DNA from: Eutreptiella sp. 'Long Island Sound 2002'
Taxonomy: Eukaryota > Euglenozoa > Euglenophyceae > Eutreptiales > Eutreptiaceae
Direction: 5' to 3'
Assembly: GCA_964036045.1 (NCBI GenBank)
Contig: OZ038379.1
Location: forward strand, 114,789,604 to 114,853,603
Length of the DNA: 64,000 nt
Shown here: positions 13,491-61,876 of the stretch, one piece after another
Position numbering within the stretch: the stretch's first letter is position 1
How the letters are laid out: the number at the start of each line of letters is the position of its first letter
Made by a program: the position numbers and the translations under genes
Notes under the pieces: model-generated
Told to the model about the DNA's origin: nothing
The model's input: the letters and a program-made list of their open reading frames with translations, nothing else
The model's database searches: none

Positions 13491-13740
13491 CATCCTAGAA
13501 AACGGCTAAAAAAAGGCTCGTTTTCACCTTACAATTGGCCACCGCATGCCACGACGGCATCGCGCACGCATTGTTGAACACCTCGTTGCGTTCTTTTGAT
13601 AGCCTAATGGCCGCTGGCAAAGAATGGCCCTCATTGAAAACTCCGAGTTGACACACGTGCAGTAGCCCTAAATTTTCACGACGATCATCCTCAAAATGGC
13701 ACAAAAACGGCCCTTCTTTGGACACTGAATTTGTTGTACA
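13491..13740 (+). repeat. Single diverged ~194-bp satellite unit
   Basis: Repeats the landmark order of the upstream satellite: TTTTCACCTTACAATTGGCC, CATTGTTGAACACC, TTTTGATAGCCTAATGG and a GACGATCATCCTCAAAA motif. It abuts a reverse-oriented 94-bp block at about 13,741, so the two satellite families are interleaved. Confidence 0.65.
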
Positions 13741-43456: not shown

Positions 43457-43464
43457 GCGAGGTG
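43457..43464 (+). repeat. Left target-site duplication of hAT-1 (GCGAGGTG)
   Basis: GCGAGGTG sits directly before the CAGGATTGTGTATA terminus and is repeated exactly at 61,869-61,876 after the opposite terminus. Confidence 0.92.
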
Positions 43465-43478
43465 CAGGATTGTGTATA
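43465..43478 (+). repeat. hAT-1 left terminal inverted repeat
   Basis: CAGGATTGTGTATA, a perfect inverse of 61,855-61,868. Confidence 0.93.
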
Positions 43479-43502
43479 AAGTCTGATGTCTGATGTCTGA
43501 TA
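43479..43502 (+). repeat. hAT-1 left subterminal TCTGATG repeat
   Basis: AAG(TCTGATG)2TCTGATA, 24 bases adjoining the terminus and identical in sequence and orientation to 61,817-61,840. Short subterminal repeats in hAT elements commonly bind transposase; that role here is inferred. Confidence 0.8.
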
Positions 43503-43609
43503 AGGGGTGTTGTGTGTGCGGTCTGTCCAAGAAGATGTCTCATATTCTTGTCTATTGGAGGTGGGTCTAGGGGTCTAATGTCTAGAGGAAATTGGGAAAA
43601 ACTATCCCT

Positions 43610-43820
43610 AAATCACCCCCCCCCTTGCCGTTGTCCACACCAAATTCTTCACAGGAACACCCCCCCCTTGACCCACCCATCCCCCCCCCCACTATCAGGT
43701 GCCTTCCATCCCCCCCCCAAGGGAAAAAGGCGCCACAAAAAACAGAAAACACAAACCCCCCCCGTTTGGAAAACAATTGCACACCTGTTGTTGACAATAG
43801 ACAGCACCTGTGACAATCAG
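43610..43820 (+). repeat. hAT-1 left subterminal long inverted repeat
   Basis: Contains TTGTCCACACCAAATTCTTC, CACTATCAGGTGC, CGTTTGGAAAACAATTGCAC and ACCTGTTGTTGACAAT between C-runs. The reverse complement of 61,558-61,760 matches it block by block. C-run lengths differ between arms. Confidence 0.88.
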
Positions 43821-43920
43821 AAACATGGCAACACAAAAATAAAAACCACTTTGAGCACCACAACGGGGCAATGGGGAAAATGGGTGAGCAGCAAAAGTGG
43901 CCAAGGAAAAATACACTTTG

Positions 43921-43975
43921 GGAAAGGGAAAGGGGAAAGGGGAAAGGGGAAAGGGGAAAGGGGAAAGGGGAAAAT
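43921..43975 (+). repeat. GGGGAAA heptamer microsatellite
   Basis: About seven tandem GGGGAAA units between the hAT-1 left end and the transposase stop. No coding role is apparent. Confidence 0.85.
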
Positions 43976-44248
43976 GTGGGAGCAGGAAAAGTGGGAAAAT
44001 TGAACGACCGCCACAGAAAAAGGCCATACATAGCACTGAAAACCAAATGGGAAACGTGGGGGAAATGTGCCAAACAGGGAAAGGGGCAGAAATCTCAACG
44101 GATAGCATCCTGACCATGGCAATTGGCATCAGTTAAATTCGGATCCACACACCATAGAACACCAAATGTTGCAACACGGAAAATGGGAAAAATCTTCAAA
44201 GAGAGCGCACAACAACAAACAAGCACATGCAAATACGTGGGCATCCTC

Positions 44249-47200
44249 TCATTCATCGATGAGTCCATCCATGTCATCCACTGGCTGCGAGCAACTGGGC
44301 TGGGAGCTGCTTGGTGGTGCCGCAGAACGCGTGACACGGTCCGTGTCTGGCACAAACGCATCCCATTCTTCCAACAATGGCAATGCGTGCTGCGTAGCAA
44401 GGTCTCGCAATTCCCGCCGAGTGTTGCTACTTGCCAGCTTTATACCAAGCACATCAAGACAATGCACCAACGCCACCCTCGTCCAATCACGCACCCTGCC
44501 ATTCTGCACTGCCATTACCAACTTCTCCTGCATCCTAGCCACCATGCGCCCCTTATTTGGCTTGCGCGTTGTGGCCAATTCGTCTGCACTATTGTTCTCC
44601 CCCTCATCACAGACATCACCTACGACATTCACCACCACGTCCCCACAAGGAAGCGGGCTTGCGCAAAAGCATGCATGACACACTAGACATGTATTGCACC
44701 AGATGCGAACCTCCTTCTTGCATGTGGCACACTCCATACCTCTGCGAAAAGTGATGAAGTAGCGGTTGCCAGCATGCGAGTCAGGGGTCCCATGTGGTGC
44801 CACAGTGCGTACCACATCAGCCTGGTGCCGTTCTGTGACCTTTCCTGAGGGGGCCGTGGATGCTACTGGTGTACCCGGCTCTCCAAAGAAGGGCAGGTTG
44901 TCACCATCATCAGCCACTGCTTCATTACCTTGTAGACACTGCAGCATCGCAGCTTCCAGAGATTGTCTTTCACTTACCTTCCTTGAAACCCTCTGTCTTG
45001 GGTGCAGATCGAAGCGTGCACGGGCAGCCAAGTGGCGTGCCACTGCAACACCTTGTCCCTTTGCCCATTGCTGTAAAGGGGGCAAGTTGGAATGCAATGC
45101 CATGCACATGCTGAGGACATGTGTCTCCACTATGTCATGCATATTGCTGCAGAACCTCCCACGCAAAGAGATGGCACACTCTACTGCAGCTTCAGCGGGG
45201 CAATACGTTCGCAATAATGCGAGAACGCGCCACACGTTGACCCACTGTGCATGTGCCCTTTCGGGTGCCAATGCCTCCCACATCTTGGACATTTGCACAG
45301 TTGCAAAGTGCTGCACCATGTGCTCCTTAAGGTCTGCCCACTCTACCAAGGCACGGTCACAGTTCACATGTGCCGTGCAAAACTCTTCTTGGTGTGCAGC
45401 CATAAACTGACGCAACTGCTCTACCTCATATGCAGCACGCTCATTGACCGGGAGGCCAAGGAAACATCCATGGTCCAACAATGCTGCGCACTCCAACACC
45501 CCCCTGGGGTCAATGGTTGCCTGCCCCTCCTTGATGCCTGCAAGCAACGCATCAGTTACTGCACGCGCCTGAACGCCAGGAAAAGGAGGGGTTGTTACAC
45601 ACTTCTGCCCACCTGAACCAAACTGCACCAACTGCACACCATGCCATGCACCGGTCGCAGTTTGCTCCTTGAACTGCAACCACCCTCGACCCTCCTCGCA
45701 AGCCACCTTCTGCAACCGGGCTTGTAGCATACCTGTGGCAGTGGCTAAGTGTGCACCTGTGGGCGCGCGCAGTTGTGCCACACTGTTAAAACACCGCATG
45801 CCATGCAAGATGTCCCCATAAACCACCCCCCATGCAAGCAAACTGGCATCATGGCAGTCCTCCCACACATCCTCCTCCTTGGTAGAGTGCTGCACCTTGG
45901 AATCCAAGTGTCGTGCCACCAAGGGGACATTGGCCAAAAAAGCAGTGTTGCGCCGTGCATGCGCCTGTGACCACCTGATGCGATGACTTGTGGGGATCAG
46001 TTGCAAGCCACTACGGTTATCCTGCACATGCTTCGGCACACACTTTTGCAACTCCTTCCACTGCCGTGCCCCACTGTACAAGCCTCGCTGCCGATTGACG
46101 GCCGCCATGTAATCAACATGGGTCGCGCCGGCAGCCTCTAGCGCAAGACCCAACTTGCGCTGCAACACATGGCACGGCTCACCCAAGGGTGTCATCAACA
46201 CCAACCACTTCCCAATCAAGGCAAACACATTGCTCTCAATGACAGAGACATCAATAACCTGCCGCGCACTGGCACCCCGCACACCAAGGTTGGAAGCCCC
46301 GTCCACTGCAAAGGTCACTACCCTCTTTGCCCACCAATTGAGGTCAGGAATCCAGGACAGCAGAACGCATTCCAGCTGTGTTGCAATCTCATGCGCATCA
46401 CCACAGGCCACATCCACCAGCCCAAGGAACACCTCACACATGCCCCCAGGGCCAGTCCCCGGGAAAATAAGCAGAATGCCGTACTCATTGACGCGATGCC
46501 TCTGCCTATCCGAGCCGTCAAGCAACACTGCAATGAACGTTGCCAGGAATAAGGTGTGCGTCACCTCATCCTGCATGGCATCATGCATTGCTGCAATAGC
46601 CTTCTCAACTATCCACCGCCGTGATGCATGGTGCCCAGGGGCAGATGTTAGAGAACAGTGCAGAAGAATGCGCTCACTTATAGCACGGACGGAAGTGCAC
46701 ATGCGTAACCCAATATACACGTCAACCAACCGTGACAGAATGGCTGCCTCAGCATCCAACATAGCCACACCAATGTCCATGGCTTCCACCCTGACGAACA
46801 CAACGGTCGCTCCCACCACCACAGCTGTGGCAGCAGCAGTGGGGCACAATGCGCGATATCACTCTGCACAATGCACCTTGAAACTGTCCTCGGCCAATCG
46901 GTGGTGGTGCCCTTGCCTATGCAGATTCTTTCGGTTTGATGTTGTGCCACGTGACAACCCCAAGTGGCTTTCCAACACCTCCTTCCGCCAGGTTTTTGGG
47001 CCAAAGGTCTTCATGCGCATCCCTACAGCATATGTTCCCAATACCAAGGCTTCACTTTTCTTAGGGGGACGCGCCACCCCAGGAATGCCACACACATTTG
47101 CCCACGCACAACACACACACTCAACACCCCCACTTGTCGTGAACTGATACTGCCAATGGGCGGCTACAAACATTTGTAGTGTCTTTGGACCACTGTCCAA

Positions 47201-47830
47201 TTGCATGGGAGTGGCATGCATCAACACACACAATGCGTCCTTCCCCGATGCGGCCAATGCAACAGACCTCAACCTGTCTTGCTCGACTGATTGTGCCACT
47301 GAGGATTGTGACATGCCATGCTCTGCATGCCGCGCATCCCACTCTTTTGCATGCCGTGCTCTCAGTTGCATCTGGTGTGCTTCAACACGCACTCTCAGAT
47401 GCCTTGCCACTCGCACCTTGCGCTTCTGCAGCAACTGTGCCACTGCCTCAACAAATTCTGAGGACGTCTGTAGCGGCGCCGAGGCACCCACACACATCTC
47501 ATTAGGCATGCTCTGGGCATGCGTACTCATGCCCCCTACCCTTGAAGCACTCTGTGTTGCAGTTGGGGAAGGGGGGGGTGCGCCTTGTACCAGCGCCGTG
47601 GCTGGCACAGAGGCGTCCATAGGCACGCTCTGGGCATGCATAGGCCTGTTCCTGATGTACCCAACCCTTGATGCACCCTGTGTTGAAGGAGGGGTGGGGG
47701 GGGGACGCACCTGGTGCCAGCGCCATGGCTGGCACCGAGGTGTCAGTAGGTACGCTCCGGGCATCCCGTGTCTGACCAGGGGCCGGCGGTCTTGTCCGTC
47801 GGGAGGCACGCTGCGACATGTCTGGTACAA
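44249..47830 (-). CDS. hAT transposase (DDE) with N-terminal zinc-finger and C-terminal Cys cluster
   Basis: Two in-frame segments, 47,830-46,862 and 46,858-44,249, are separated only by a TGA at 46,859-46,861. The first has a possible BED-like zinc finger: CVCCAWANVCG, then RKEVLESHLG and a downstream His. Positions in the 866-codon second segment: LLDGSD supplies the first Asp (about D111), FAVDGASNLG the second (D183), and PCHVLQRKLGLALE (C226, H227) matches the hAT CxxH-like motif. SHRIRWSQA fits the 'RW' motif. AAVECAISLRGRF supplies the Glu (E557) in the dimerisation region. A Cys cluster follows (C707, C710, C718, C721, C724, C727), with a weak SAP-like helix pair near the end. The element's termini and 8-bp duplication support the call. 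No credible ATG was found, because the frame may be fused to the USP gene upstream. Confidence 0.82.
47500..47790 (-). repeat. Three-copy coding linker repeat between USP and transposase
   Basis: Peptide units of about 39-42 residues carry QSVPMDASVPATAL / RSVPTDTSVPAMAL, followed by a Pro-rich stretch and ASRVG. The DNA landmark GCACGCTCYGGGCATGC recurs near 47,507, 47,624 and 47,750. The 9-G run at 47,696-47,704 is where the reading frame changes between the USP side and the transposase side. Confidence 0.75.
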
Positions 47831-49464
47831 CCAAATCTGTCTGTTTCCGCTTGTATAGCAGAAACGTCGCCTTTCGCGGGTCGGGGGGGGGATTCATGGC
47901 CTTCACCGTGGTGTCGTTACACAACCACCACCTGTCGTGGACAACGACATGCACCACAAAGTGACCCTCCTCCCTCGTCGCTCCAATGTGCAACACCATG
48001 GCATGCAAGGACCATTGCCACCCCAGGCAATCGAGAAACTCATGGTCCACAACCAACTTGTACTCCTGCTGGTTGTGGACATGTAACCCCACGACCTCGT
48101 TGTACACCACCGATGTATACATTGGTGCCTCCCTCAGGTCACCCCCACACGGACACGGGGGGGGGGGGGTTGTCAGGTAACCCAACCGGTCTCCCCTTCA
48201 TTCCCTCCTTCACACGCTGTCGCACACTCTGCCCCTGGTTCGTCACATGCAATATCTGCGCTGGCATGGCTATCTCCCCGCCCTCCCGCAAACCTTCACC
48301 CCACAGGCACCACAATATTGCCAGAACTGCTCGTACAACAGACAACATGACCGAGCAACCACCCGAGCGGCCGTGAGCTTGGGCACCATGTACTTCCAAC
48401 ACTCGGGCATCTCCGCCTGCCGCATCCATTGGAATTTTGGTGCAGGGGCTTTGCACTTGCATCGCCCGATGCATCGGCACACCGTCTCACACATGGCATC
48501 CTCCATTGCCAGCCTCTCAGCAATGTCCTGTGGATTGTATGCACCACCTCCTCCATGTGCCACAACACCCTGCCACAATGGTCCCCAAACACCCTCCTCG
48601 TCCAGGCATCCTGCGTGCTGTCCTTCATGTCCACCCGACGCCACCAACAGAAACTGCAGCGTGGTACCCAACCAACACCAGTTGTACCCATGTGGATTCT
48701 CCAGTCCCCATGGTCGCCGCGGTGCTCCACCAAGTGGCGCACTATGCACCTGCATGTAAGCGGAATGCGGTCTCATTGAGGAATGCACGGTCCCGCGGCG
48801 GGAGTGTCCACCAGTCACCACGGGAGTACAACACCACCAACCTCCTCTCCCCGTGCCAAGAACAAGTGCCATGCCATGCACCCGTACGTACGAGAACCGG
48901 TTGCTGGCATACATCGTACGTGGCGCCAACCCGTGTAACACCATCCAAGCATTCCATACTACACCTCCGTCCGGCCCGACCATTACATACACCACCTCCC
49001 TCCACCCATATGTGTCCCCGTGTGTGCTGGCCGGTGGAAAACACTGCCGACCAAGGGGACGCGTCATGCACATGCTTATGCGGTTTTGTGAGCACATTGC
49101 AAGACAATTGCATGGTGGTCCATGTGAACCAATCAGGCAACATCTGCCTTGCCATCTTGTTCACCAGGGTCACCGATGGCTTGTAGTTGCGTGTCCGTTG
49201 CACTAGACGAGTGCGGCGGCAATCTGTTGCATTGGTCTGGCCCTTCATACCACCAACCCCTAGTTGCAAATGCCACGCTCTAAGCCCCCCAACCGGCCCA
49301 CGCATGTATGCCAAGATGCCCATCACCCCGTGCAACGTGCAAAAGGGGGCTACCTGCAGCGAATGGTCAAAGACTGCACCCCGGAAATGACCACCTCCTT
49401 TGACACCATCTCGTTCCGCCTCGGCAATAACCACCACCGTCGCCCGGTGGCACTGCTCCTCCAT
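47502..49464 (-). CDS. USP-type (C19) deubiquitinase-like protein
   Basis: The ATG at 49,464 overlaps the OTU stop codon (TGATG). The frame shifts several times before the catalytic core, so the protein is read piecewise. A Cys box GYNWCWLGTTLQFLL lies near 48,675 (Cys codon 48,675-48,677). CxxC-type residues (CRCIGRCKC; YCGACG) follow, then MPAQILHVTNQG, as expected between the USP boxes. A His box AMVLHIGATREEGHFVVHV (His codon 47,961-47,963) is followed by DRWWLCNDTTV and KATFLLYKRK, the final USP strands. Cys, His and Asn/Asp are all present. Frame changes occur at a 13-G run (48,157-48,169) and near 48,280. USPs remove ubiquitin. Here the target is unknown, and activity depends on whether the frameshifts are real. 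Confidence 0.68.
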
Positions 49465-51793
49465 CAGTCCATATCCCCACAGTCACGGTAGTGCAGCGGA
49501 TGCTCCCGTCCAGTCACCCAAACAGTAGCGGATGTCAACGCGCTGTCGATCCCAAACCCTGACGTCACAATGATGTACCTGTCTGATCGCAACAACACCA
49601 CACTACCGTCCACATGCTTCGCCAAGGCAGCAAAGTGGTCAGCCAGTCCCCCTTGGGGCCGGCCACGCCATGTGTCCTTCTCAAGATCCCGGTTCACAGA
49701 TAGTGTAGACTCTTGAATTGAAAGCCCACACACGTCGCGAAACACGGCGATGGCCCTTGCCCAGAGCGATGCGCCGTCGCACGGGGTGTTGCTGGTGATA
49801 GCATGCAGGCTTTGGGCCACGGCATAGTAGAAACATGCCCCGGCAACGTATTGGTCGGGAAGAATGCGAAGCTTCAAAGACCTCGCCGTTGGTAGGACTC
49901 TGCCAACCTCGGCCTTGCGGGGGTTTTTGTCCACGTCGTCCAATGCCATAGCATCTGGATCTATCGGCGCTGTCTTTGTGCCTTGCTCTTTCTTGCCACG
50001 TTTCACGGCAGCCCCATTACTTGGTGGGGGAACCCCTGGGCGCTTCTTGCTCCGTGGGCTCTGTCCCACAGAACTGGGGTGTGCAACCGGGGTGGTCGCT
50101 GACTCTGCACCGGACTGACTGCAAGCCCTCGTTGTCACCAATGAACTAGGGTGTTCAACCGGGGTGTACCCTGAATCCGCACTAGACTGACTGCAGGCCT
50201 TCACCGTCGCCACGGTGCCTGTGCTAGAAGGACTGCAGTCCACAGCAGCTGGCTCCTTGGGTTTCTGTGCAAGTGGTACAGGAGACTCCTCCAAGGAACT
50301 CGCCACCCCTCCATCACTAGCCGCCGGTGTCAGACACACAGGGTGGGGGGCCGGGGAGTGTGACTCATCGGCGGGGCAGACCTGGGACCTGGGGTCCGGT
50401 GTTCCACGTCCAACACATGCCGCGGAGTCGTTCACACCACCCGGGGGGGGGGCAGGTGGACTTAACACCTCACCAGGGCTATCCACCCTATGTGCACCTG
50501 CCGGGGGACCACGCCCTTGTGCCAGGGAGGACGAAGTGGGAGTCACAGACTCATCGCCTGAGGGGTCTCTTGCCATGAGCACCGCCGCTCCACCCTCCTA
50601 CGCTACGGCAGAGGACGTGGAGTCACTTGGGTCACCGCGGGGGTGCCCTTCTTGACTTAAAGGTTGGGTGCATGGTCGCTGTACACCGGTCGCCTCCATC
50701 TCCTCCATGCGCACCGCCGCTCCAACCCCCTGTGCTACGGCAGAGGACGTGGAGTCACTTGGGTCACCTCGGGGGTGCCCTCCTGGACTTGATCGTTGAG
50801 TGTATGCTGGCTGTACACCGGCCGCCTCCATCTCCGCCACTAGTACCTGCAGCATCTCAAGACCTCCATCATCCCTCCATGCGTTGGCCATAACCCGTAC
50901 GGCCGCATGCAGACGACCGGGATGACTGTCTGGCACCTCTGGGCTAAAGGGGCTGCAACGCAGCAAGAGCTCGTTGCAGTCTTGCATAGGCACCCGCATG
51001 CTGCCACCAGGTTGTCCTCAGTCAATGGTTCTCGGCGCTGCTCTTGCAGCCCTTGGCATGCAATCGTGAGGCAGCGGGCTGCCCCATGGGCGGCTTGCAG
51101 CAACGCTTGGTCAAAGCGCTCTTGCCGTGTCTGGGTGACAGTGACACACGCATGTGGAACCGCAGCCTCAGGCAGCAACGAGTTGCGCCGACCGCTAGCG
51201 CGCGCCTTGGGGCTTGGCAACACGTCGCTCACCAGTGGTTTGGGCCCACTTGTCGCTTGGGGCCACAGATATGGGCCAGGCGTCACATGGCGAATAGCCT
51301 TGTCATAGAAGTAACCCATGGTAGGGGTGGGATACGCCACGTCCCCAGTCCAGAACGGCCACTCGTCGAACAGAGGTAGGGCACGCACCAGTTCACACCA
51401 AACGTCCCTTTGCTCTGCTGTCTTCACACTTGACGGCCACCCGGAAATAGCACCGGCCTTACGACTGCCTGGCCGGCCACGGTTCCGTTTTGCAAGTCGT
51501 TCCCACAGGTCTGTGGCAACATCCCGGTAGTGCACGAGGCTCCCCCCATCATGCATGGTGGGCTTGGCAAACCCATGCTCGGTGTACATGAACCGGCACA
51601 ATGCCCTGCAACCATGCAGATTCACCACGTCAAGGTCACACGAGGCCATGCGGTCCCTCAACCGTCGCCATAGGCGCCCGGCCACCTCCGGTGTGGCCTC
51701 CTACCCCAATTGTCCTGTGGCCAGCATTAGGCCATACTTCATTCTTGCTGGCTCCAGCAAGTGCTCCGGTGGCCATTCAGCAGGCTGGTCCAT
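49464..51793 (-). CDS. OTU-type cysteine protease with large unknown N-terminal region
   Basis: C-terminal OTU domain: VAGACFYYAVAQSLHAI carries the nucleophile (Cys about residue 250 of the last open segment), GGLADHFAALAKHVDGSVVLL matches the 'Wgg..el.alA..l...i.v' block, and HPLHYRD carries the catalytic His (about 364). A basic RSKKRPGV and KRGKKEQ region before it may be a nuclear signal. A Pro/Ser/Thr-rich linker contains two near-identical segments (ACSQSSADSGYTPVEHPSS and its copy) and two GHPRGDPSDSTSSAVA repeats. Further upstream, WPFWTGDVAYPTPTMGYFYD belongs to a domain I do not recognise. The frame is broken by TAGs at 50,598-50,600 and 51,701-51,703 and a shift near 50,990. More protein-like sequence in another frame extends to about 52,043. 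OTU proteases are known passengers in some Helitrons and other DNA transposons. Confidence 0.7.
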
Positions 51794-52064
51794 TGCTTGG
51801 CTCGTGCACCACGACTGTTAGTGGTTTGGGTGACCTTCGAGGCTTGCAGGGTCCACAACCGTGACCACTATTGGGCTCCCACAACTCGGGGGGGCAATCA
51901 AGGGCAGGTCCTTGGTACTCAAACTGCCAGCCGGGCTGGTCCTCAGGCTCACCGGCTGGTCCAGGAGACGCTGTTGCTGGTGGGTTTGTTGTCGAGAGCG
52001 CTAGGACTATGACAACAAACGAAGTGCTGCTGCTCAGAGGCACGCAGTGGCTACGTCAAGGCTT

Positions 52065-52290
52065 AGTCGCGAAGCGCAATGGCTTGGACTGAAACCGAAA
52101 GCTGAGGCTCAAAGGCGCACAATAGACAACCAGAGTTCAGTCGCGGAGCGCAGTGGCGCAAACTGAAACCGAAAGCTGTGGCTCAAAAACGAAGAATAGG
52201 CGATCAAGGTTCAGTCGCGAAGCGCAATGGCTCGGACCAAGCCAGGTAGCTGTGGCTCAAAGGCGCACAGTAGGCGAACTGGCAGAACGC
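52065..52290 (+). repeat. Three-copy 73-bp repeat
   Basis: GCGAAGCGCAATGGCT, AAACCGAAAGCTG and GGCTCAAAGGCGCACA recur at offsets of 73 bp (about 52,070, 52,143 and 52,216). It lies at the upstream edge of the OTU gene and the downstream edge of the palindromic satellite. Confidence 0.85.
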
Positions 52291-52379
52291 GAACTCGCAC
52301 AGGGAAAGGTGTAATGAGGCAAAAACAAACTACAAGGAGAAAAAGTACAGATGAGACCACAGAACCTGGACGCGGCATA

Positions 52380-53830
52380 CCCCCGAAATGTTTTGGAGGT
52401 GAGATATTGGACCCGTTCCGTGAAATATTTTGGGGCTGTACACCCACCAAATATTTGACGGAACCCCATCCGTCAAATGTTTGGGGGGTCTACAGCCCCG
52501 AAATATTTGACGGAACCCCTTCCGTGAAATGTTTTGGGGCTGTAGACCCACAAAATATTTGACGGAACCCCATCCGTCAAATATTTGGGGGGTCTACAGC
52601 CCCCAAATATTTGACGGAGCCCCTTCCGTGAACTATTTTGGGGCTGTAGACCCCCCAAAGATTTGACGGAGCTCCATCCGTCAAATATTTGGGGGGTGTA
52701 CAGCCCCCAAATATTTGACGGAACCCCTTCCGTCAAATATTTGGGGGCTGTACACCCCCCAAATATTTGAGGAAACCCCTTCCGTGAACTATTTTGGGGC
52801 TGTAGACCCCCCCAATATTTGATGGAGCCCCATCCGTCAAAGATTTGGGGGCTGTAGACCCCCCAAATATTTGACGGAACCCCATCCGTCAAATATTTTG
52901 GGGCTGTACACCCCCCAAATATTTGACGGAACTCCTTCCGTGAAATATTTGGGGGCTGTACACCCACCAAATACTTGACGGAAGGGGTTCTGTCAAATAT
53001 TTGGGGGCTCTACATCCCCCAAAAAGTTCACGGAAGGGGTTCCGTCAAATATTTGGGGGCTCTACACCCCCCAAATATTTGACGGAACCCCTTCCGTGAA
53101 ATATTTTGGGGCTGTAGACCCACCAAATATTTGACGGAACCCCATCCGTCAAATATTTGGGGGGTCTACAGCCCCCGAATATTTGACGGAGCCCTATCCG
53201 TTAAATATTTGGGGGCTGTAGACCCCCCCAAATATTTGACGGAGCCCCTTCCGTGAACTATTTTGGGGCTGTAGACGCCCCAAAGATTTGACGGAACCCC
53301 ATCCGTCAAATATTTGGGGGGTGTACAGCCCCCAAATATTTGACGGAACCCCTTCCGTCAAGTATTTGGGGCATGTACACCCCCCAAATATTTGACGGAA
53401 CCCGTTCCGTGAACTATTTTGGGGCTGTAGACCCCCCAAATATTTGACGGAGCCCGATCCGTCAAATATTTGGGGGCTGTAGACCCCCCAAATATTTGAC
53501 GGAACCCCATCCGTCAAATATTTTGGGGCTGTACACCCAGCTAATATTTGACGGAACCCCTTCCGTGAAATATTTGGGGGCTGTACACCCACCAAATATT
53601 TGACGGAACCCCATCCGTCAAATATTTGGGGGCTGTACACCCACCAAATATTTGACGGAACCCCTTCCGTGAACTATTTGGGGGCTGTAGACCCCCCACA
53701 TATTTGACGGAACTCCTTCCGTGAAATATTTAGGGGGGTCTACAGCCCCCAAATATTTGACGGAACCCCTTCCGTGAAATATGTTGGGGGTTTAGACCCC
53801 CCAAATATTTGACGGAACCCCATCCGCACT
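52380..53830. repeat. 52-bp palindromic satellite inside hAT-1 (~28 units)
   Basis: Each unit contains CCCCAAATATTTGACGGA, a short AACCCC(A/T) loop, then TCCGTCAAATATTTGGGG: a stem of about 17 bp. It is followed by a second small palindrome, GGGGGCTGTAGACCCCC. TTTGACGG landmarks at 52,506, 52,558 and 52,610 give a 52-bp period. Variation clusters in loops and at stem positions that often change symmetrically. It separates the helicase and OTU genes. Frames across it are repeat artefacts. Confidence 0.93.
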
Positions 53831-54143
53831 GTCATTGTCATGTATCATTGTTGAACGGCAATTATCGTTGGCGTGTCTTCAACCTCCTTTTTGGGCATCC
53901 CCACTCTGAAGACCTTGGAGACCTCCTTCAATCTTGGGCAGTCAGGCATGGGCACATTCGTACCATTGCGGACAAACATAATGAACGCACATTGCAGCAA
54001 ACCTGGTGGTGATGACATGTGTGTACTCTTTCACGCTGGTGCTGTGGCTGGTACTGTTGTGATGTGGCAGCGATGGTCAGAGGCCATGGGTCAATGCATG
54101 TTCTTCTACATTCAGGGTTAGTTGCGGCCCAAAATGTAATCTT
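53831..54143. other. Spacer between satellite and helicase gene
   Basis: About 310 bases downstream of the helicase stop. No domain is recognised; it is likely 3' untranslated or spacer sequence. Confidence 0.4.
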
Positions 54144-56652
54144 TCACCCCGTGGGGCAGCTTGCGCCAACCACATTGGGGGCTTCCTCCTCGTGCACCGG
54201 AATTGGTGCACACACCCCAAGGTCCCCAGAGCAAGGGTGCACACCATGGAGCAGGGACGCCACATACACACCAATAGGGGTGCGGAATTCCGCACACAAG
54301 AACGGCAAGAAATCCAAGCAGGCGTACGTGTCCTGCCACAAGGGCAGGTGGATCGTGCGGTACGCCCCTACTGTCTCCTTGTTGCTGTACTTTTGCTTGT
54401 AGAAGAGGGGCCTTCCAACCAGGTGCTGGACGAGTCGCTGCTCCCACACGTCAAGCTTGGATGTGTGGGTTACCCTCACCAGCCCCCCCCAGTCCCCCTC
54501 TCCCCTGTCCCCTTGTCCATCGTCCTCAACCAAGACGTACGGGAGCGCCAATTCGGTGAAGTCAGGCAGGATGCCCCCCAGAAGGCGGGGTTTCACAATG
54601 TTCCCCCGTGCATCCCTCAGAGAAACGGACGCATCATCCTTCCGGTTGTTGGCCATGATGCGCTCAAAGTCAAGCAACTGATCCGCACTGCCTGGTGAAT
54701 ACCCCCATGGGTCCCGTGCCCTCTTGTGCCTCCTCCATGGCTTCCACAGCCAGTGCCCCACCACCCCCCCCGCCAACCGGCAGATTGTGCCATGCACAAT
54801 CTTCTCCACAGTTGCGGCCTCCCTCAGAACCCCTGCCAGCTCAAGAGTGTCGCTCACAGTCCCAGAGGCTGCTTCCCACTGCATCGCGTGCAGTGCGTCG
54901 AGCCATACACCAGGGGTGGGGTGGGTGGTCCACTGTGCAAACTGCCCGAAGAGGTGCAGCTCCGACTGCGCCCTGCTGGTCAGGGTGTTTGACCGCCAGA
55001 TGTCGTGCATGATCCCTGGTGTCGTGGACACCAGGGAGGCAAGGATCATTGGGGCTTGCAGCCCCTGGAACCTATCGAGGGTCGCAACCGTTCTGAGGAG
55101 GTTTACATGATGGGCTTGCCACTTGCGGCCAACAAACGCCACACAGTGTTTCAGCCACACCATCTGTGCGTAGTGAGTCGTCACTACCGCTACCGACTGT
55201 GCTGGGTAGGTCCCTTTCCTGGCAGCATACTCCAAAAAATGGCACACCAGCAGACCCTCCTCCATGCTCAGGTCCCCCTTGTTCAGCAACACCGGATCCA
55301 TTCGCACGGTGGCCCATGCTTCCTGTACGTCGTGCCACATTCTACCTAGGTCCTGTGCCCCCAAAGTCTGCTCCAACTCCCCCCACCAGGTGGACCCAGC
55401 GAGGTCCACAATGCGGATGGGGTTGTTCAGGATGGGGTCGGGGAGGGGGTGCTCAGATGAGTGGTAGTGGCCAACTGCCCCCCCCGTAAACAAGGCACGC
55501 ATGACCGTGGCCAGCGGCTGGGTCATCCGGTACTGTTGTACCAGGATACTGGCCCGGCAGCGCGTGCGGTACAAAAAGAATTGCAAGGTGCTCGTGGTGC
55601 AAAACCGATGTGAATCATGCCAATGCACTTCCGGGCCAGGACCGTCCCTTACAACCCCGTTGTACTTGAAGGTGTCCTCCCGTGGCCATGCCACTATGTG
55701 GGGGACTATCTCAAAGCTTCTCAGCCTCAGACCAACTTGCCAAAAGCTGGACTTGGCTGTAGGGCCGCAACTGCCCTGGGTCACCACACAGCAGACATTG
55801 GCTGCCCATGGCGGCCAAGTCCAAGCCTACAGGGATGCTCTGCCTCGACGCCTCATCCACGAAGCTGAACGCGAACCTGGTTTTTTCCTGCCCTTTCCCA
55901 AGCAGCATCTTGTGCCGGTTAGCAACCATCCCAGCCGTGGCAAACAGCACACGGCAGGAGTTGAGGGCACATTTGAGGGTAGGCTTGCAACCTGGGGTCT
56001 TGCCCAAGGTCTTCTGCACCTCCTCCTGGTCGAAGGGTGCCAGGCCTGTTGGGGCAGTAGCCCGTTGGGCTTGGAGGCGCAACCAGGGGGCTGGGTGGTC
56101 GCCAAGCACCTTCTCACGAAACACACTGTCCTTGTAACACTCCTCGTGAACGCGTGCCAACAACATGTCGACTTGTGCGTTCGTCGGTGCAGTCACCAAC
56201 ACGCATGCGCGGGGTAGGGTATCTGTCTCAGGTCCCCCCACCTTCCTGCCCATGTTCCACGTACTCCGGTCAGCAGGTTCAGGGTTCTGGGCGACCAGGA
56301 GGCCTTGCTGCCATAGCACGGCCTTGATGCATGCCACCAAAGTCTCCGACTTCCCTGTGCCAGCACCACCAGTCAATGCTGTGATGCATGACTCATCCAA
56401 CACCTGCCGCACAGCCAACGCCTGTGAGGGATTCAGCCCGTGCTGTTTGACAAGGTGTTTCAGGATGTCCTGGTCCTCGGTCGACAGGGGAGGCATGTCC
56501 CTCGGTTCGGCCCGCATGTTTGCCAGCAGTTTGGGCCACGCTTCTCCGTTCTGAATCTCCCTACGCAAGGTCTGAAAGGCACCTGTGTCGGGGACAACCT
56601 TACACCAATAGGTGTCAGTGAGATTGGTGCGTGGCTTATTGGCACAGCTGAT
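54144..56652 (-). CDS. UPF1-like superfamily 1 helicase
   Basis: Two overlapping frames join by a single-base shift near 55,745-55,765, at a TTTT run. The first (56,652-55,711) has GLNPSQALAV (Q motif), ALTGGAGTGKSETL (Walker A), VTAPTNAQVD (Ia), FSFVDEAS (Walker B) and LCGDPGQLRP (III). The second (55,787-54,144) has VQQYRMTQPLATVM (IV), TVATLDRFQGLQAPMILASL (V) and NTLTSRAQSELHLFG (VI). The order and spacing fit the UPF1/SETX-like SF1B group, ATP-driven 5'-to-3' unwinding enzymes. The frame is continuous with the repeat-rich upstream protein, interrupted only by TGA at 56,653-56,655. It is not the PIF1 type carried by Helitrons. Confidence 0.85.
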
Positions 56653-58029
56653 TCAAACACGCTGTGCTGAGATGCCATCTCCATGCACCCTCGCCTCGAA
56701 GTCCGGCTTGTTTTTATCCCAGTTGTGGTTGCCGGAGATACAGCCACGCACCATGTCACCATCGGACAGCTCATAGCTGCCCCAGATCTCCATTTGGGAG
56801 GCCCATTGTGGCGGTGGGGGAGCATTCCCATCCCCATCGCCATCACCGTGGGGCCACCATCGCTCAAAGGCCAGGTTCCGCTTGGTGCCGTTCTTGTCTG
56901 CCCACACCTCAGCGGCCGCCATCTCATGGACGGTGTACACCTCTGATGCTTTGGTCACAAACTTGTCGCGGTCAAGCCACCGTTGCGTAAACCCTTCGAC
57001 AAGGTTGTCATCGGGCCCGTAGTCCATGTTGTTCAACGTGGCCGTAGTGGGCAACGGTGTTGGCTGCTGTGGCTCAGGAGCACATGGTGGTTGTGAAGAG
57101 GGTTGAGCTCCTTGTGGCGCACCCGAGTCGACCGGCGCCATGGCCGGGACAGGGGCGGATTGCTGCGGCTCTTGGGCACGCATTTGCGGGGCAGAGGGTT
57201 GGGTACCGTGTGGCGCGCCCGAGTCAGCCGGCGCCATGGCCGGGACAGGGGCGGATTGCTGCGGCTCGGGGGCACGCATTGCTGGTGCAGAGGGTTGGGT
57301 ACCCTGTGGCGCGCCCGAGGCAGCCGGCGCCATGGCTGGGACAGGGGCGGATTGCTGCGGCTCGGGGGCACGCATTGCTGGTGCAGAGGGTTGGGCACCC
57401 TGTGGCGCGCCCGAGTCCACCGGCGCCATGGCCGGGACAGGGGCGGATTGCTGCGGCTCTGGGGCGCGCAATGATGGTGGTTGTGCCGAGGGTTGCGGTG
57501 GGATCATGACGAAATCCACAGCCCCGGGTGGTGGCTGGGGCGGTGCCGGCGGGGGGGCAGAGGGTCGCGCGCCCCTGTCAGCCGGCGCCAGGGCCGGGAC
57601 AGGGGCGGAGTGCAGCGCCTCTGGGGCGCGCGGTTGAGGTGCCTTTGCCTTTGGGGGGGCAGAGTGCGGCGCGCCCCTGTCAGCCGGCGCCAGGGCCGGG
57701 ACAGGGGCGGACTGCGGCGCCTCTGGGGCGCGCGGTTGAGTTGCCGGTGCCTTTTTGGGGGCAGAGTGCGGCGCGCCCCTGTCAGCCGGCGCCTGGGCCG
57801 GGACAGGGGCAGACTGTGGCGCCTCTAGGGCGCCCGGTTGAGTTGCCGGTGCCTTTTCGGGGGCACAGTGCGGCGCGCCCCTGTCAGCCAGCGCCGGGGC
57901 CGGGACAGGGGCGGAGGCGCGCGCCTGTGGGGCGTGCGATGGTGATGGTGATGGTGATGGTGGTGGTGCCGTTGCCTTCGGCTTCGGCTTTGCACCATAC
58001 TTGGTCTTGGCGAGCCTTTTTAGAGCCAT
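56653..58029 (-). CDS. Ala/Pro-rich repeat protein, N-terminal to helicase
   Basis: ATG at 58,029 (MALKRLAKTKYGAKPK), 13 nt after the stop of the preceding gene. 458 codons. A basic start is followed by about eight tandem repeats: four of 34 residues (SAPVPAxAPADRGAPHSAP) and four of 32 residues (SAPVPAMAPADSGAPQGTQP). A non-repetitive 115-residue tail follows, with LVEGFTQRWLDRDKFVTKA, WADKNGTKRNLAFERWW and SGNHNWDKNKPDFEARVHGD. The stop (TGA, 56,653-56,655) is in frame with the helicase. If read through, or if it is an error, this is one protein of over 1,200 residues. The tail has no family I recognise. Confidence 0.65.
   Translation of the reverse strand: MALKRLAKTKYGAKPKPKATAPPPSPSPSPSHAPQARASAPVPAPALADRGAPHCAPEKAPATQPGALEAPQSAPVPAQAPADRGAPHSAPKKAPATQPRAPEAPQSAPVPALAPADRGAPHSAPPKAKAPQPRAPEALHSAPVPALAPADRGARPSAPPPAPPQPPPGAVDFVMIPPQPSAQPPSLRAPEPQQSAPVPAMAPVDSGAPQGAQPSAPAMRAPEPQQSAPVPAMAPAASGAPQGTQPSAPAMRAPEPQQSAPVPAMAPADSGAPHGTQPSAPQMRAQEPQQSAPVPAMAPVDSGAPQGAQPSSQPPCAPEPQQPTPLPTTATLNNMDYGPDDNLVEGFTQRWLDRDKFVTKASEVYTVHEMAAAEVWADKNGTKRNLAFERWWPHGDGDGDGNAPPPPQWASQMEIWGSYELSDGDMVRGCISGNHNWDKNKPDFEARVHGDGISAQRV
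57060..57930 (-). repeat. Coding minisatellite (96-bp x4 and 102-bp x4)
   Basis: GGCGCCATGGCCGGGACAGG recurs at 57,133, 57,229, 57,325 (variant) and 57,421 (96-bp period). GGCGCCAGGGCCGGGACAGG-type units recur at 57,583, 57,685, 57,787 and 57,889 (102-bp period). Both periods are multiples of three, so the reading frame is preserved, unlike the 94-bp satellite. Confidence 0.9.
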
Positions 58030-58042
58030 TTGGAAGAGTGCC

Positions 58043-59038
58043 CTACGAGTAAGAGACGCTCGGCGCACACTGCCCGAAGAGCTGGAAATTCGAACGTCTC
58101 GCCGAAGTGTGGGGTCGCTGCAGGGGGGCTTGCGCAGGGAGCAATGACCCAAATTGCGGGGGGGCGCATTGAGACGCACGCCGCTGGAGCAATGAACCGT
58201 ACTGCGGGGTGGGGCATGGCCGCTTTGGGGCGGGAGCCAGTGGGAGGAGTGAGGTACGGCGGTGCCTGCTATACTGGGTCAGCGTCACCTGATCACTTGG
58301 TGGAGGGGGCAGCGGCCGACGCGGCACAGGTGGCGGGGCTGGCTTGGGGATACGGGGGGGTTTTGGGGTGGCACACAGGATTTCAAGTACCACTGCTGCA
58401 TGCTCCTCGTCCTTGCTGAGGAAATGCGAACGACTAATTCGCATGCCCTCCTGCCAAACCCGCAGGGGGTTTTTCTTGGGCTGCTGCACAGCAAACCGGT
58501 ACATCGCTCGGCGGTTCAGCACCCCGACTACGAAGTACTGGACCCCACCCCCGTTATTCTCCCGGATGAGCTGCAGTGTTTTGGCACTGTAGGGCCCGTG
58601 TACAGTGGGCTTTGGGGGGGTGGCCGGGTCTTTGGGTACGTACTTGGGGGGTTGCGGGGGGGATGGCGGTGGCACGGCAGTGCACATCAGGGCCTCCTCC
58701 ACGGCTTCCAGGGCTACCAGGTATGGGGTTGGGTTAATGTGGGGTCTGCGTGGAGGACTTACGGGCGTTGGAGAGGTTGTTGGTGCACGGCGGGGTGAAG
58801 GGGGAGAGGGAGGCGGTGTTAGCAATGGAGACTGGGGGGAGGCCAATTCGCTGAGACACTTCTCAGCATCAGAGTCCCAGGGTGGCGATGGGGGTTGGTC
58901 TCCGAACCGCAAGAGCTCCGGCAGATCCCCCCAACAGCATTCCGGGAACGAAGGGCTGGAGGGGGCGGAAGAGGCCACGCTAAGGGGGCTAGACGACATG
59001 GCGAATTGCAGCCCGCAGTGGGTGGGGGATGAACGCAT
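58043..59038 (-). CDS. Proline-rich protein, function unknown (first ORF of hAT-1)
   Basis: ATG at 59,038, 331 codons, uninterrupted. Ser/Pro-rich N-terminal half (SPLLTPPPSPPSPRRAP), then a compact segment (about residues 148-210) with QLIRENNGGGVQYFVVGVLN, RRAMYRFAVQQPKKNPLRVW and SRSHFLSKDEEHAAVVLEIL, then another Pro-rich tail (PPVPRRPLPPPPS). It is the first gene downstream of the right terminus. Its stop lies 13 nt before the next ATG. The central segment may be a small globular fold; I cannot assign it. Confidence 0.6.
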   Translation of the reverse strand: MRSSPTHCGLQFAMSSSPLSVASSAPSSPSFPECCWGDLPELLRFGDQPPSPPWDSDAEKCLSELASPQSPLLTPPPSPPSPRRAPTTSPTPVSPPRRPHINPTPYLVALEAVEEALMCTAVPPPSPPQPPKYVPKDPATPPKPTVHGPYSAKTLQLIRENNGGGVQYFVVGVLNRRAMYRFAVQQPKKNPLRVWQEGMRISRSHFLSKDEEHAAVVLEILCATPKPPRIPKPAPPPVPRRPLPPPPSDQVTLTQYSRHRRTSLLPLAPAPKRPCPTPQYGSLLQRRASQCAPPQFGSLLPAQAPLQRPHTSARRSNFQLFGQCAPSVSYS

Positions 59039-59275
59039 GGGTGCTGGGGCAGGCCCAACTCAAATGTCTGGGGCAGAGCCGCAACGGTCTAGACCCTAGA
59101 CGCGCTTCCTCGCCTCAAGGGTCCAGGGTCGATAACAAAACAGTGCCCTATGTGTAGAAGAGGCTCAGCGCACACTTGTCTCCTAGGCAATACACGCATT
59201 TCCCTTTGTGTCGAGAGAGGTATGCACAACAAGGAACAGATAAGCGTTGAAGGGACATAGGTACCAGGAGAATGT

Positions 59276-59372
59276 GACATGGGACCCCTTCTCAGTAGTG
59301 GGCAGCATGTTCATCATTGAAGGGGTCTATGGTCATAGGCGCCATGGCCTAGACCACGGACGTACTAAACAC
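59276..59372 (+). repeat. ~105-bp hairpin repeat R1
   Basis: ACCCCTTCTCAGT...TCATTGAAGGGGTC, then GGTCATAGGCGCCATGGCCT and AGACC. Two hairpins per copy. Related to 60,497-60,600 and 61,406-61,510. Confidence 0.85.
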
Positions 59373-60044
59373 CTCAAGGGTGTTGTGCATGATCCGCCAA
59401 ATAAAATAAAATCAAGTGCGATAAAACCAAAACATACCATGAAATCACAACCACATTAAATCAATGGACCACCAGTACCGACATAGCAGAGCCCCTTCTC
59501 AGTTTTTTTTTTGGCTGACAGTGGGAATTCTGCATCACCCAACTCAAATGCAGTCCGCCACATTGGACAGTATTGCGCCCAGCAAGGCAGAATGAAAAAG
59601 AAACCTTGGGGCCGGAATCTGCGCAATGACCCAGACAAGCTGTCAAGGTAGGGGCTGGCGTATGTTGTGCAGCACAAGGGTGCAGTAGGGCTGATTGCAG
59701 TGGTCTTTGGCAAGTTTGGCAAACATGCAGATCCGTTGGAGTATGGGGAGATGCCTGGCTCCATCCAACAAAATAGGGCCTATAACAGTAGGCCCTGGAC
59801 AGATTGTTCCCACATGGCTGACACATCATCGAAGGGGATGCATACCTACATGGCACAATGCATGCTCCATCTAATAAAATAAAATCCATCAAATCCATCA
59901 AATCAAACAGAACCAAGACACAAAAGTATTAGCAACGCACACCTCTGTGAATGGTAACCAGAACAGCCAAAGCAGAGCCCCTTCTCATAACATTGTTTTC
60001 GGTGGAAGCGTCAGCCTCCGGGCGCCATACGACTATGGGGATGT

Positions 60045-60185
60045 TTGAAAAATGTCTTGGGGCACGCAGTTGCAGGGCAGAGGGTTGGGCGCCCTGTCGC
60101 GCGCATGGTGGTGATGGTGGTGGTGCCATTGCCTTTGGCTTTGGCTTTGAACCATACTTGGCCGGGACAGGGGCTGCGCCTCGAG
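60045..60185 (-). pseudogene. Displaced fragment of the Ala/Pro-rich ORF
   Basis: The minus-strand peptide contains KYGSKPKAKAMAPPPSPP and QGAQPSALQLRAP, which correspond to the start (KYGAKPKPKATAPPPSP) and repeat region of the gene at 56,653-58,029. GCCGGGACAGGGGC adjoins it. It is a rearranged partial duplicate within the same element. Confidence 0.8.
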
Positions 60186-60496
60186 GGCTCTTTGGAGATG
60201 CTGCTGGTGCGAAGCCGGATCCCTCCCCCCCCGGATGTGGAGTTGGATGGTAATGATTTTCCCATGCTTAGGAAAATGCTGTTTCATGCCCCACTTTCTC
60301 AACAGCTTTGCCGACCCAAACAGGGCCTAAGAAAAAAGGTCCCTGCGGGGGTCTGTGCCTCTGCTGTGGGGGAAGCACAGACCCGATGTCGGCAAAGCAT
60401 CCCCCTGCGTTTGCGCCCTTAGAAACAAAAAATCATCGAAGGGGATGCGTAACCTCGTTTGTCAAATAGCAAACATGGAAGCAAATACCAGGAAAT

Positions 60497-60600
60497 CAGA
60501 ACCCCTTCTCAGTTGTCGTCAGCACATTCCTCATCGAAGGGGTCTGTGGTCGTAGGCGCCAGGGCCTAGACCATGGACATACCAAACACCTCGATGGGTG
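60497..60600 (+). repeat. ~105-bp hairpin repeat R2
   Basis: ACCCCTTCTCAGTTGTCGTC ... CATCGAAGGGGTCTGTGGTC ... GGGCCTAGACCATGG. Same layout as R1. Confidence 0.85.
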
Positions 60601-61405
60601 CTTTTCAGGAACAAACAGCACACGTTCAAATACAACTTCAAAAGAAATGCAATGCGACACGTGGCACCAAAGTTGCAAATGTTCACGACTTACACCATAA
60701 CCCACCTCTGAGAATTGTAGTCTGTGGGTAATCTGTAGTCTGTGATTTTTTCCATGTTTTTCCACTACACACAGAACCAACAGAACATCGAACATCACAG
60801 ACACACACCATGTGATGCTGACACTGAAAGAGGCAAGGCAGGCTTTTCCACACCATTGCGCATGGGGTTGCGTAGGGGGTGTTTTCCCTACACTATGGAT
60901 TTCTCTGCATGGTTTTCCAAACTTCCTCAAGAAACACCACGGCAAGACGGAGGACGATAACACAGAGCACAGGGGTTTTAATGGTCGTCACCAGATCCTG
61001 CAATGAACAACAAAGCGTGAGCAGGGCATGGTGCAGCACATTGCAATGAGCCTTCGGGGCTGGGACAGAGGGGCGGTTTAAAACAAGGAAGTCAAATTCG
61101 AAATCACTGCAAAGCCCCTTCTCAGATGTATGTTGCTTGGTTTTCAAAATGGTTGCTGGCCATTGGAGGACATGGTGCACATTCTGGTGGACATGGTACA
61201 CTGACTGCTGGGGGCAGTCCCATTCCTCGGCCCCAAATCCGCAAAGCTCCGTCCGCACAAAACAGGTCCTAAGAAACAGGTCCCTGCGGGGGTCGACACT
61301 GAAGACCCACGCGTGACGGAGCAGCACATGTAAATTGTCATGCATCGTCATTGAAGGGGCTCACAGTCAGCAAATTGTAATTGGTTGCAGGAGCAAACGT
61401 GCCAG

Positions 61406-61510
61406 AACCCCTTCTCAGTTGTGATCAACGCGTTCATCATGGAAGGGGTCTCTGGTCTAAGGCGCAAAGGCCTAGACCACAAACAATCAAAAACACCTCA
61501 AGGGCGTTGT
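61406..61510 (+). repeat. ~105-bp hairpin repeat R3
   Basis: ACCCCTTCTCAGTTGTGATC ... CATGGAAGGGGTCTCTGGTC ... AGGCCTAGACCACAAAC. Same layout as R1 and R2. Partial copies of the first half occur at about 59,484, 59,969 and 61,109. Confidence 0.85.
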
Positions 61511-61557
61511 ACACAAACAAATTGTCTGCTCAAACAACCAAAATCAGAATCAAATTG

Positions 61558-61760
61558 AAGTTGTCACATACATTGTCAACAACAGGTGTGCAATTGGTTT
61601 CCAAACGGGGGGGTTTGTTTTTTCCGTGGCACCTTTTTTCCTTTGGGGGGGGGGGGGGTTGAAAGCACCCGATAGTGGGGGGGGGTGGGGGGGTCACGGG
61701 GGGGGGTTTCCTGCGAAGAGTTTGGTGTGGACAAGGGCGGGGGGGGGGGGTTGATGTAGT
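61558..61760 (-). repeat. hAT-1 right subterminal long inverted repeat
   Basis: Reverse-complement partner of 43,610-43,820: ATTGTCAACAACAGGTGTGC, AATTGGTTTCCAAACG, GCACCCGATAGTG and GAAGAGTTTGGTGTGGACAA between long G-runs. Confidence 0.88.
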
Positions 61761-61816
61761 GCATAATCATGGGGTTGGGGGAGGGGGGTTCATGGTCTGG
61801 TAATGATGGTCCATAA

Positions 61817-61840
61817 AAGTCTGATGTCTGATGTCTGATA
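61817..61840 (+). repeat. hAT-1 right subterminal TCTGATG repeat
   Basis: Same 24 bases and same orientation as 43,479-43,502. It lies 14 bp from the right terminus. Confidence 0.8.
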
Positions 61841-61854
61841 GCCGACTAGGTCGC

Positions 61855-61868
61855 TATACACAATCCTG
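61855..61868 (-). repeat. hAT-1 right terminal inverted repeat
   Basis: TATACACAATCCTG, perfect inverse of the left terminus. Confidence 0.93.
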
Positions 61869-61876
61869 GCGAGGTG
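61869..61876 (+). repeat. Right target-site duplication of hAT-1 (GCGAGGTG)
   Basis: Exact copy of 43,457-43,464. Satellite sequence resumes after it (CTCGTGAGCAGCCGCAC). Confidence 0.92.

Follow-up and report, generated by a model that had tools for sequence, protein, structure and literature searches.

A probable giant hAT transposon with a USP-transposase fusion and OTU-like and helicase genes in the genome of Eutreptiella

hAT transposons are usually 2.5-5 kilobases (kb) long, so can an 18.4-kb stretch with several genes move as one of them? The question is raised by a window of 64,000 base pairs (bp) from Eutreptiella sp. 'Long Island Sound 2002' (assembly GCA_964036045.1, contig OZ038379.1, positions 114,789,604 to 114,853,603 of the forward strand), in which a reading of the letters without database searches (hereafter, the sequence-only reading) had described a giant hAT element with perfect ends. 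We conclude, with a probability of roughly 80%, that the locus holds one giant DNA transposon, a member of the hAT superfamily, with a USP-type protease region fused to the transposase, an OTU-like protein, and a helicase. The structure is well supported by the ends, the duplications of the target site, the colinear block of genes, and the frame that joins the USP region to the transposase.

Ends and target site

The element proper occupies positions 43465-61868 of the window (18,404 bp). It is bounded by a perfect 14-bp terminal inverted repeat and flanked on both sides by the same 8 bp. Further in, some 190 bp of the two ends match imperfectly in inverted orientation, and both ends also contain a 21-bp direct repeat based on TCTGATG (TCTGATGTCTGATGTCTGATA), oriented alike on the two sides. 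The TCTGATG repeats are a putative binding site for the transposase. The features of the element, in window coordinates, are as follows (the subfamilies A and B are described below):

43457-43464, no strand: left target-site duplication, 8 bp (GCGAGGTG), read directly
43465-43478, plus strand: left terminal inverted repeat CAGGATTGTGTATA, 14 bp, the same in the 10 fetched copies of subfamily A (which were selected by their left ends)
43482-43502, plus strand: left subterminal direct repeat TCTGATGTCTGATGTCTGATA, present at all 10 left ends fetched for A; in B, intact in 7 of 8 and with a substitution in 1 of 8
43608-43798, plus strand: left subterminal inverted-repeat arm, 82% identical to 61572-61759
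44252-47530, minus strand: probable hAT-type transposase with one in-frame stop (46859-46861); some other copies in the genome are intact
47505-49160, minus strand: USP-type (UCH, PF00443) protease region, N-terminal to the transposase, split over frames here
48745-51700, minus strand: OTU-like protein, with a Cys-box-like motif in 49467-50597 and a His-box-like motif in 48745-49482, split over frames here
52411-53826, no strand: tandem array of 52-bp units between the OTU-like and helicase genes
54147-58278, minus strand: superfamily 1 (SF1) helicase, UPF1/SEN1-like (AAA_11 and AAA_12 in Pfam), with a repeat-rich N-terminal part, split over frames here
58046-59059, minus strand: proline-rich open frame of 338 amino acids, without a Pfam domain
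61572-61759, plus strand: right subterminal inverted-repeat arm, from the self-comparison of the window
61820-61840, plus strand: right subterminal direct repeat TCTGATGTCTGATGTCTGATA, oriented as on the left, exact at 5 of 7 fetched A right ends and with one substitution at 2 of 7
61855-61868, minus strand: right terminal inverted repeat, 14 bp, read directly
61869-61876, no strand: right target-site duplication, 8 bp, read directly
61877-64000, no strand: the target, a degenerate 164-bp satellite, also at about 40.7-43.46 kb and at 35.5-36.8 kb

(The window by itself would fit a 10-bp duplication with 13-bp inverted repeats equally well. We rejected it because other copies duplicate 8 bp.)

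The satellite lies on both flanks of the element, and it records the insertion. If the flanks are joined with one copy of the duplication kept, then 25 satellite alignments span the junction, and the best of them scores 373 bits. If both copies are kept, there are 18 spanning alignments (best, 179 bits), and if neither is kept, there are 19 (best, 184 bits). The register of the satellite is restored once the element and one copy of the duplication are removed. As the satellite runs continuously through the joined flanks, the whole 18.4 kb occupies what was formerly a single target site.

The sequence-only reading had reported 14-bp perfect repeats, an exact 8-bp duplication, and matching subterminal repeats. 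All of these are present, and the size of the duplication was settled by the other copies. The span that it gave, 43457-61876, does correspond to one 18.4-kb unit, but it includes the duplications, which are not part of the element proper.

Other copies of the element

We searched the assembly (2.28 gigabases in 2,205 contigs) for the ends. A 38-base pattern for the left end gave 255 matches genome-wide with at most one mismatch, and a 36-base pattern for the right end gave 256; the reversed patterns, as controls, gave 0 in both cases. On the contigs common to the left-end and right-end matches listed, there are 94 exact left ends, and 48 of these are followed within 45 kb by an exact, correctly oriented right end (0.2 were expected). 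Only 4 pairs of exact ends had other arrangements. The 48 paired ends are separated by 4.1-41 kb (median 14.6 kb), with 29 of them at 10-25 kb.

For the ten best left ends, all from subfamily A, we fetched 20 kb each. (The common first base of these copies is partly by construction, while their right ends were free of selection.) The right end lies within the fetched stretch in seven copies, and its last base is identical in all seven. An eighth A copy was completed later, so that both ends are covered in all ten except c3 and c10. Adding two copies of subfamily B and the copy in the window gives 11 elements that were read at both ends. The eight A copies range from 4.2 to 20.4 kb, and the complete copies that we measured are 18.4-20.7 kb long (18.6 and 20.7 kb for the two B copies). 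The copies align colinearly, with 93-98% identity in most long segments. In particular, c6 is colinear with the whole element at 96-97% identity, and c2 is a 4.2-kb derivative with an internal deletion that keeps both ends. An exact 8-bp duplication was found in 8 of the 11 copies (including c6, in a run of G); the two sides differ by one base in c2 and c7 and by four bases in c9.

Some copies that are otherwise colinear have inversions in place (L020/L021 and L028/L029), at element positions 4508-4807 in c4 and at 11551-11876 and 13729-15184 in c8. These are perhaps traces of failed transposition or of gap repair.

The interior genes also recur together. Among the matches listed (42 for the transposase, 40 left ends, 78 for the helicase, and 109 for the OTU-like gene), to which all the counts in this paragraph and the next refer, 27 of the 42 transposases have an OTU-like match within 40 kb that is in the correct order and on the correct strand, and 26 of these are at a distance of 5.18-5.22 kb. 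A helicase is near the transposase in the right order and strand in 16 of 42 cases, with 0.03 expected by chance. Left ends are in order with an OTU-like match in 23 of 40 cases and with a helicase in 18 of 40, and the OTU-like gene is in order with the helicase in 47 of 109. Differently arranged pairs numbered one for transposase and OTU, two for OTU and helicase, and none for transposase and helicase, left end and OTU, or left end and helicase. This constancy of order and strand implies that the interior genes form one mobile unit.

Two counts weigh against a single unit. First, of the 40 left ends in the list, 0 pair with a transposase in the list. The two lists draw on different subfamilies (A for the left ends and B for the transposase), which explains this; in the fetched A copies, the transposase does adjoin the left end. 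Second, 37 of the 109 OTU-like matches have no partner among the matches listed, a count that is compatible both with and without blocks that lack these ends.

There is also a second family, with a transposase that is about 65% identical, in which predicted proteins (P0016, P0020, P0025, and P0082) join USP or OTU to the transposase. Thus, the association is older than the split between the families. (This second family, that of P0003, is itself numerous, with 44 scored of 1,946 candidates.) Overall, the colinear copies, the order and spacing of the genes, the paired ends, and the 8 exact duplications among 11 copies bear out the single giant element of the sequence-only reading, with gene content that is conserved between copies in order, strand, and spacing.

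Gene content

All of the recognised genes of the element are on the minus strand. In L003, a single frame of 1,578 amino acids comprises the USP-type region and then the transposase, which is the C-terminal two thirds of it. The USP region of L003 matches UCH (PF00443) in Pfam at 1.7e-6, over positions 197-254 of the 254 in the profile, and the frames of the window match it at 6.7e-7, over positions 196-254 only. UCH is above the Pfam cut-off in L003, P0082, and P0090, and the match is confined to the C-terminal part with the His box. A Cys-box-like motif (NWCWLGTTLQCLL), which lies upstream of the Pfam match and was read by motif, is kept in the fetched copies and, with some changes, in P0082. 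Two points weigh against the assignment to USP: it relies on the last 58 of the 254 Pfam positions, and solved USP12 chains match the region only at E = 0.4.

The OTU-like frame has 880 amino acids in L028 and up to 1,076 in other matches. Its Cys and His motifs are kept in P0022 and in the divergent P0025. As a point against this assignment, the frame has no match in Pfam, NCBIfam, or PDB sequences, and we call this second candidate protease gene no more than OTU-like, on the basis of its motifs. The helicase is a single frame of 1,289 amino acids in L015, with matches to AAA_11 (1.3e-15) and AAA_12 (1.9e-11), and the nearest solved structures are a 5'-3' RNA helicase-like protein (6.6e-13) and SEN1 (3.9e-5). 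The proline-rich frame of 338 amino acids has no Pfam domain.

Long frames that are stop-free in the match were found for each gene among the matches listed: USP-transposase frames of at least 1,500 amino acids in 5 of 42 rows, OTU-like frames of at least 1,000 in 10 of 110 rows, and helicase frames of at least 1,100 in 15 of 82 rows (two contig pairs look duplicated). In the window copy, in contrast, the transposase has one in-frame stop, and the USP region, the OTU-like gene, and the helicase are split over frames. Because its frames are broken, the window copy is probably not autonomous. The sequence-only reading had counted at least four genes besides the transposase. We do find OTU-like, helicase, and proline-rich frames and a USP region, but in intact copies, the USP region is fused to the transposase and is not a further gene.

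Two subfamilies

Over the first 5.5 kb, we compared six A copies with six of the eight B copies (the P0001 type) in steps of 250 bases. A and B are 78-95% alike in the part up to 3.25 kb, versus 97.7-100% within the groups. Beyond 3.25 kb, A and B are 97.6-98.8% alike, which equals the likeness within groups, and the helicase and OTU-like pieces of B fall within the range of A (dS, the synonymous divergence, is about 0.01-0.07). The right ends of the two subfamilies are 94.8-96.5% alike except in the last six bases, which are ATCCTG in A and TAGCTG in B. The left tips are CAGGAT in all 10 fetched A copies, which were selected by left end, and CAGCTA in all 8 B copies, which were selected by transposase. 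The terminal inverted repeat of B is CAGCTATGTGTATA. In both of the B copies that were read at the right end, the tips match and the duplications are exact (CGGGGCAT and GCGCTCAC). One A copy, c9, has an aberrant right tip; it is also without a clean duplication. Tip bases 4-6 at both ends and the catalytic part of the transposase change jointly between the subfamilies, and the accessory block is shared.

Between A and B, the transposase is under purifying selection (median ratio of nonsynonymous to synonymous divergence, dN/dS, of 0.20). The other genes do not show this, which weighs against our view that they serve the element. Among copies, dN/dS is near neutral for the OTU-like gene (median 0.88; 15 pairs, 0.37-2.56) and for the helicase (median 0.79; 46 pairs, 0.38-2.77), although some of these pairs come from fetched stretches of a single copy that overlap. 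Between the subfamilies, it is 0.24-1.67 for the OTU-like gene and 0.53-1.26 for the helicase. As the copies of these two genes are so similar and so near neutral, dN/dS gives no sign of selection on either of them.

Possible roles of the extra genes

We propose that an RNase-H-like transposase would recognise the inverted repeats with their CAG tips, probably together with the TCTGATG repeats further in, and that it would move the element by cut-and-paste, making the 8-bp duplications by the hAT mechanism. The USP domain may strip ubiquitin from its own transposase and so spare the transposition complex from degradation, and the OTU-like protein may strip ubiquitin from partners of the transposase. 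Removing ubiquitin from the transposase or its partners is the most likely role for the protease domains. The helicase may aid the repair or replication of such a long element. The odds seem about even that this is a previously undescribed, self-protecting lineage of giant hAT elements, with a deubiquitinase-transposase fusion, a second deubiquitinase-like gene, a helicase, and subfamilies that exchange a specificity cassette (the catalytic domain and both end tips) while sharing one accessory block.

Instead, the extra genes could be passive cargo that has no role in transposition and that is kept because the element is recent, which would be compatible with the structure of a single element. 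The near-neutral dN/dS of the helicase and OTU-like genes in the sampled copies fits with this. Also, internally deleted copies with both ends exist, so the extra genes are dispensable in cis. We nevertheless find cargo a doubtful explanation because of the long stop-free frames of the helicase and of the OTU-like gene, because the Cys and His motifs of the OTU-like gene survive in the divergent P0025, and because the USP region is fused to the transposase.

The superfamily of the transposase and other explanations

The transposase probably belongs to the hAT superfamily, given its profile matches, the 8-bp duplications, and the CAG tips. The terminal inverted repeats of hAT elements are typically tipped with CAG or TAG, and hAT transposases have an all-alpha insertion domain. 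The element has both the 8-bp duplication and the short CAG-tipped inverted repeats that are traits of hAT.

To compare profiles, we used hhalign. The query profile was built from 35 relatives of the transposase (28 kept; effective number of sequences, Neff, of 1.5), and the target was built from 80 of 120 listed hAT proteins, all with PF14291 and PF05699. Shuffled and reversed queries were the controls, and hAT was the sole superfamily profiled. Residues 226-560, the catalytic region, matched the hAT profile with a score of 37.9 (P = 2.7e-4), as compared to a mean of 17.0 and a maximum of 29.1 for 250 shuffles (0 of 250 reach the score) and 16.5 for the reversed query. The DGS and DGASN motifs align in the catalytic region of the profile. 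Over the whole length, the match (P = 0.0015) takes in the RW motif as well as the first D and DGASN. In the C-terminal region (residues 701-870), a candidate match of 35 columns falls at the expected place, on the hATC signature, and puts VERAISLRGR on VERSFSTLRR (score 22.8, reached by 1 of 250 shuffles).

Several results weigh against the hAT assignment. Pfam shows no transposase domain in the frames of the window, in the four full-length relatives scanned, or in the 40 relatives that were aligned, and NCBIfam likewise gave nothing for the transposase. The probability from hhalign is 17% for the whole length, while the catalytic region has 41% and the C-terminal region 2%, which is consistent with the low diversity of the query profile. 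Two AlphaFold2 models were too poor to use (mean predicted confidence, pLDDT, of 43 for the transposase and 32 for the other), and a fold search gave 0 matches at E = 0.001. In a separate protein search with an alignment of relatives, which scored the 8,000 candidates with the most shared words, 78 proteins were found (53-100% identical to P0001 in the aligned part), and none is an outside relative. Although Pfam is blind to it, the hAT-type transposase of the sequence-only reading is supported by the duplications, the CAG tips, and the profile matches.

Another possibility is that the transposase is merely hAT-like and belongs to some other superfamily with an RNase-H fold and 8-bp duplications (such as KDZ/Zisupton, P, or a new one). 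This would account for the missing Pfam hAT match, the low hhalign probabilities, and the long subterminal inverted repeats, and hAT was the only superfamily profile compared. Also, an extra enzyme gene can occur in KDZ elements, according to passages of one report (PMC12730594). This seems unlikely because two separate regions match hAT profiles and stand in the expected order (DGS and DGASN, then VERAISLRGR), with the RW motif in the whole-length alignment. Pfam includes a model for the KDZ transposase; it gave no match in the four full-length relatives or the 40 aligned ones, but the hAT models miss this transposase too.

A composite origin, in which an ordinary hAT element of 4-5 kb accidentally trapped or was invaded by an element with the helicase and OTU-like genes and the two were later amplified jointly, would suit the mosaic of A and B (one accessory block accompanies two diverged modules of transposase plus ends), the 4.2-kb derivative c2 with both its ends, and the inversions inside copies, but it is improbable because the USP region shares a frame with the transposase, because the OTU and USP links to the transposase in the 65%-identical family are old (this concerns OTU and USP and does not cover the helicase), because the order and strand of the genes are constant in many copies, and because the self-comparison of the window, which would miss short ends, found no second long inverted pair inside the element and hence no second transposon boundary of that kind at 44-59 kb.

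Helitrons and Helentrons have a Rep/HUH nuclease and neither inverted repeats nor a duplication, and Starships have a tyrosine-recombinase captain as their hallmark. The element has inverted repeats and duplications, and Pfam found neither a Rep domain nor a tyrosine-recombinase captain in the frames scanned (10 from the window and 5 intact).

Other features of the window and genome

Elsewhere in the window, there is a large and degenerate tandem array with units of about 94/188 bp (4208-11954), a G-rich minisatellite with nested periods of 21/32/53 bp (26756-27309), and, outside the element, an open frame of 240 amino acids (30466-31188). We also noticed frames in which chlorophyll a/b-binding domains stand in tandem, with up to 6,122 amino acids in a single frame (for example, G000:C9:43682069-43694992 and C23:19070551-19075362). 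These are probable antenna polyproteins, and tandem arrays of this kind are a feature of euglenids and dinoflagellates.

Relation to known elements

The element resembles known hAT elements (Ac, hobo, Hermes, Tol2, and the ZMYM/DUF4371 type) in its 8-bp duplications, its CAG-tipped inverted repeats, its subterminal repeats, and the two profile matches. Unlike ordinary hAT elements, it is 18.4 kb long, has USP fused to the transposase, carries OTU-like and helicase genes, and has a transposase that is below detection by Pfam. The gene load of this giant multigene hAT is far above that of the usual hAT element.

Large hAT elements that carry genes are already known. In passages of its description, the fungal ToxhAT is 14.3 kb long and has a hAT-like transposase and several other genes within inverted repeats (PMC6737239). 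The same paper deems ToxhAT a composite of at least two transposons, detected no duplications, and describes its coding regions as widespread in other fungi. For the Eutreptiella element, in contrast, the ends number in the hundreds, 8-bp duplications are present, and the order of the genes is conserved. DNA transposons with an extra enzyme gene are also known among fungal hAT7 and KDZ elements, where the gene is of the TET/JBP type (PMC12730594). However, hAT7 makes 7-bp duplications and its extra enzyme is a dioxygenase, and the main text of that paper mentions protease, OTU, and ubiquitin 0 times. Teratorn, Polintons/Mavericks (PMC6431247), and Starships are likewise long units with extra genes, but they have other recombinases or viral genes. 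The review cited, on giant eukaryotic transposons, uses the word hAT 0 times. Among the papers listed in searches of an open-licence library, none describes a hAT element with USP, OTU, and helicase genes, as judged from titles, abstracts, or term counts. So, the statement in the sequence-only reading that such a class was not known to be described is partly right: within those listings it holds for this set of genes, but not for large gene-carrying hAT elements in general (ToxhAT and the TET-carrying hAT7).

The closest parallel to the protease genes is in Helitrons. VTD domains that are encoded by Helitrons are active deubiquitinases, some Helitrons have OTU domains, and the authors suggested that these deubiquitinases might block the proteasomal degradation of proteins that are needed for transposition (passages of PMC9741609). 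Helitrons and Helentrons are thus similar in encoding deubiquitinase domains alongside a helicase. They are unlike our element in that they are rolling-circle elements with a Rep nuclease, have VTD or OTU rather than USP, and lack a classical transposase.

The deubiquitinase domains in Helitrons (PMC9741609, in part), together with a USP domain on a hAT-type transposase, suggest by analogy that ubiquitin-mediated turnover of transposition proteins may be a host control that transposons have repeatedly evaded. If the lineage does protect itself, then it would be the cut-and-paste counterpart of the deubiquitinase-carrying Helitrons, and the copies with intact frames make this idea testable. The joint change of the end tips and the transposase is a natural experiment on how the recognition of ends evolves. 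More broadly, elements of 18 kb with several genes can probably exist in a cut-and-paste superfamily that was thought to be small and single-gene, and one genome can contain hundreds of their ends.

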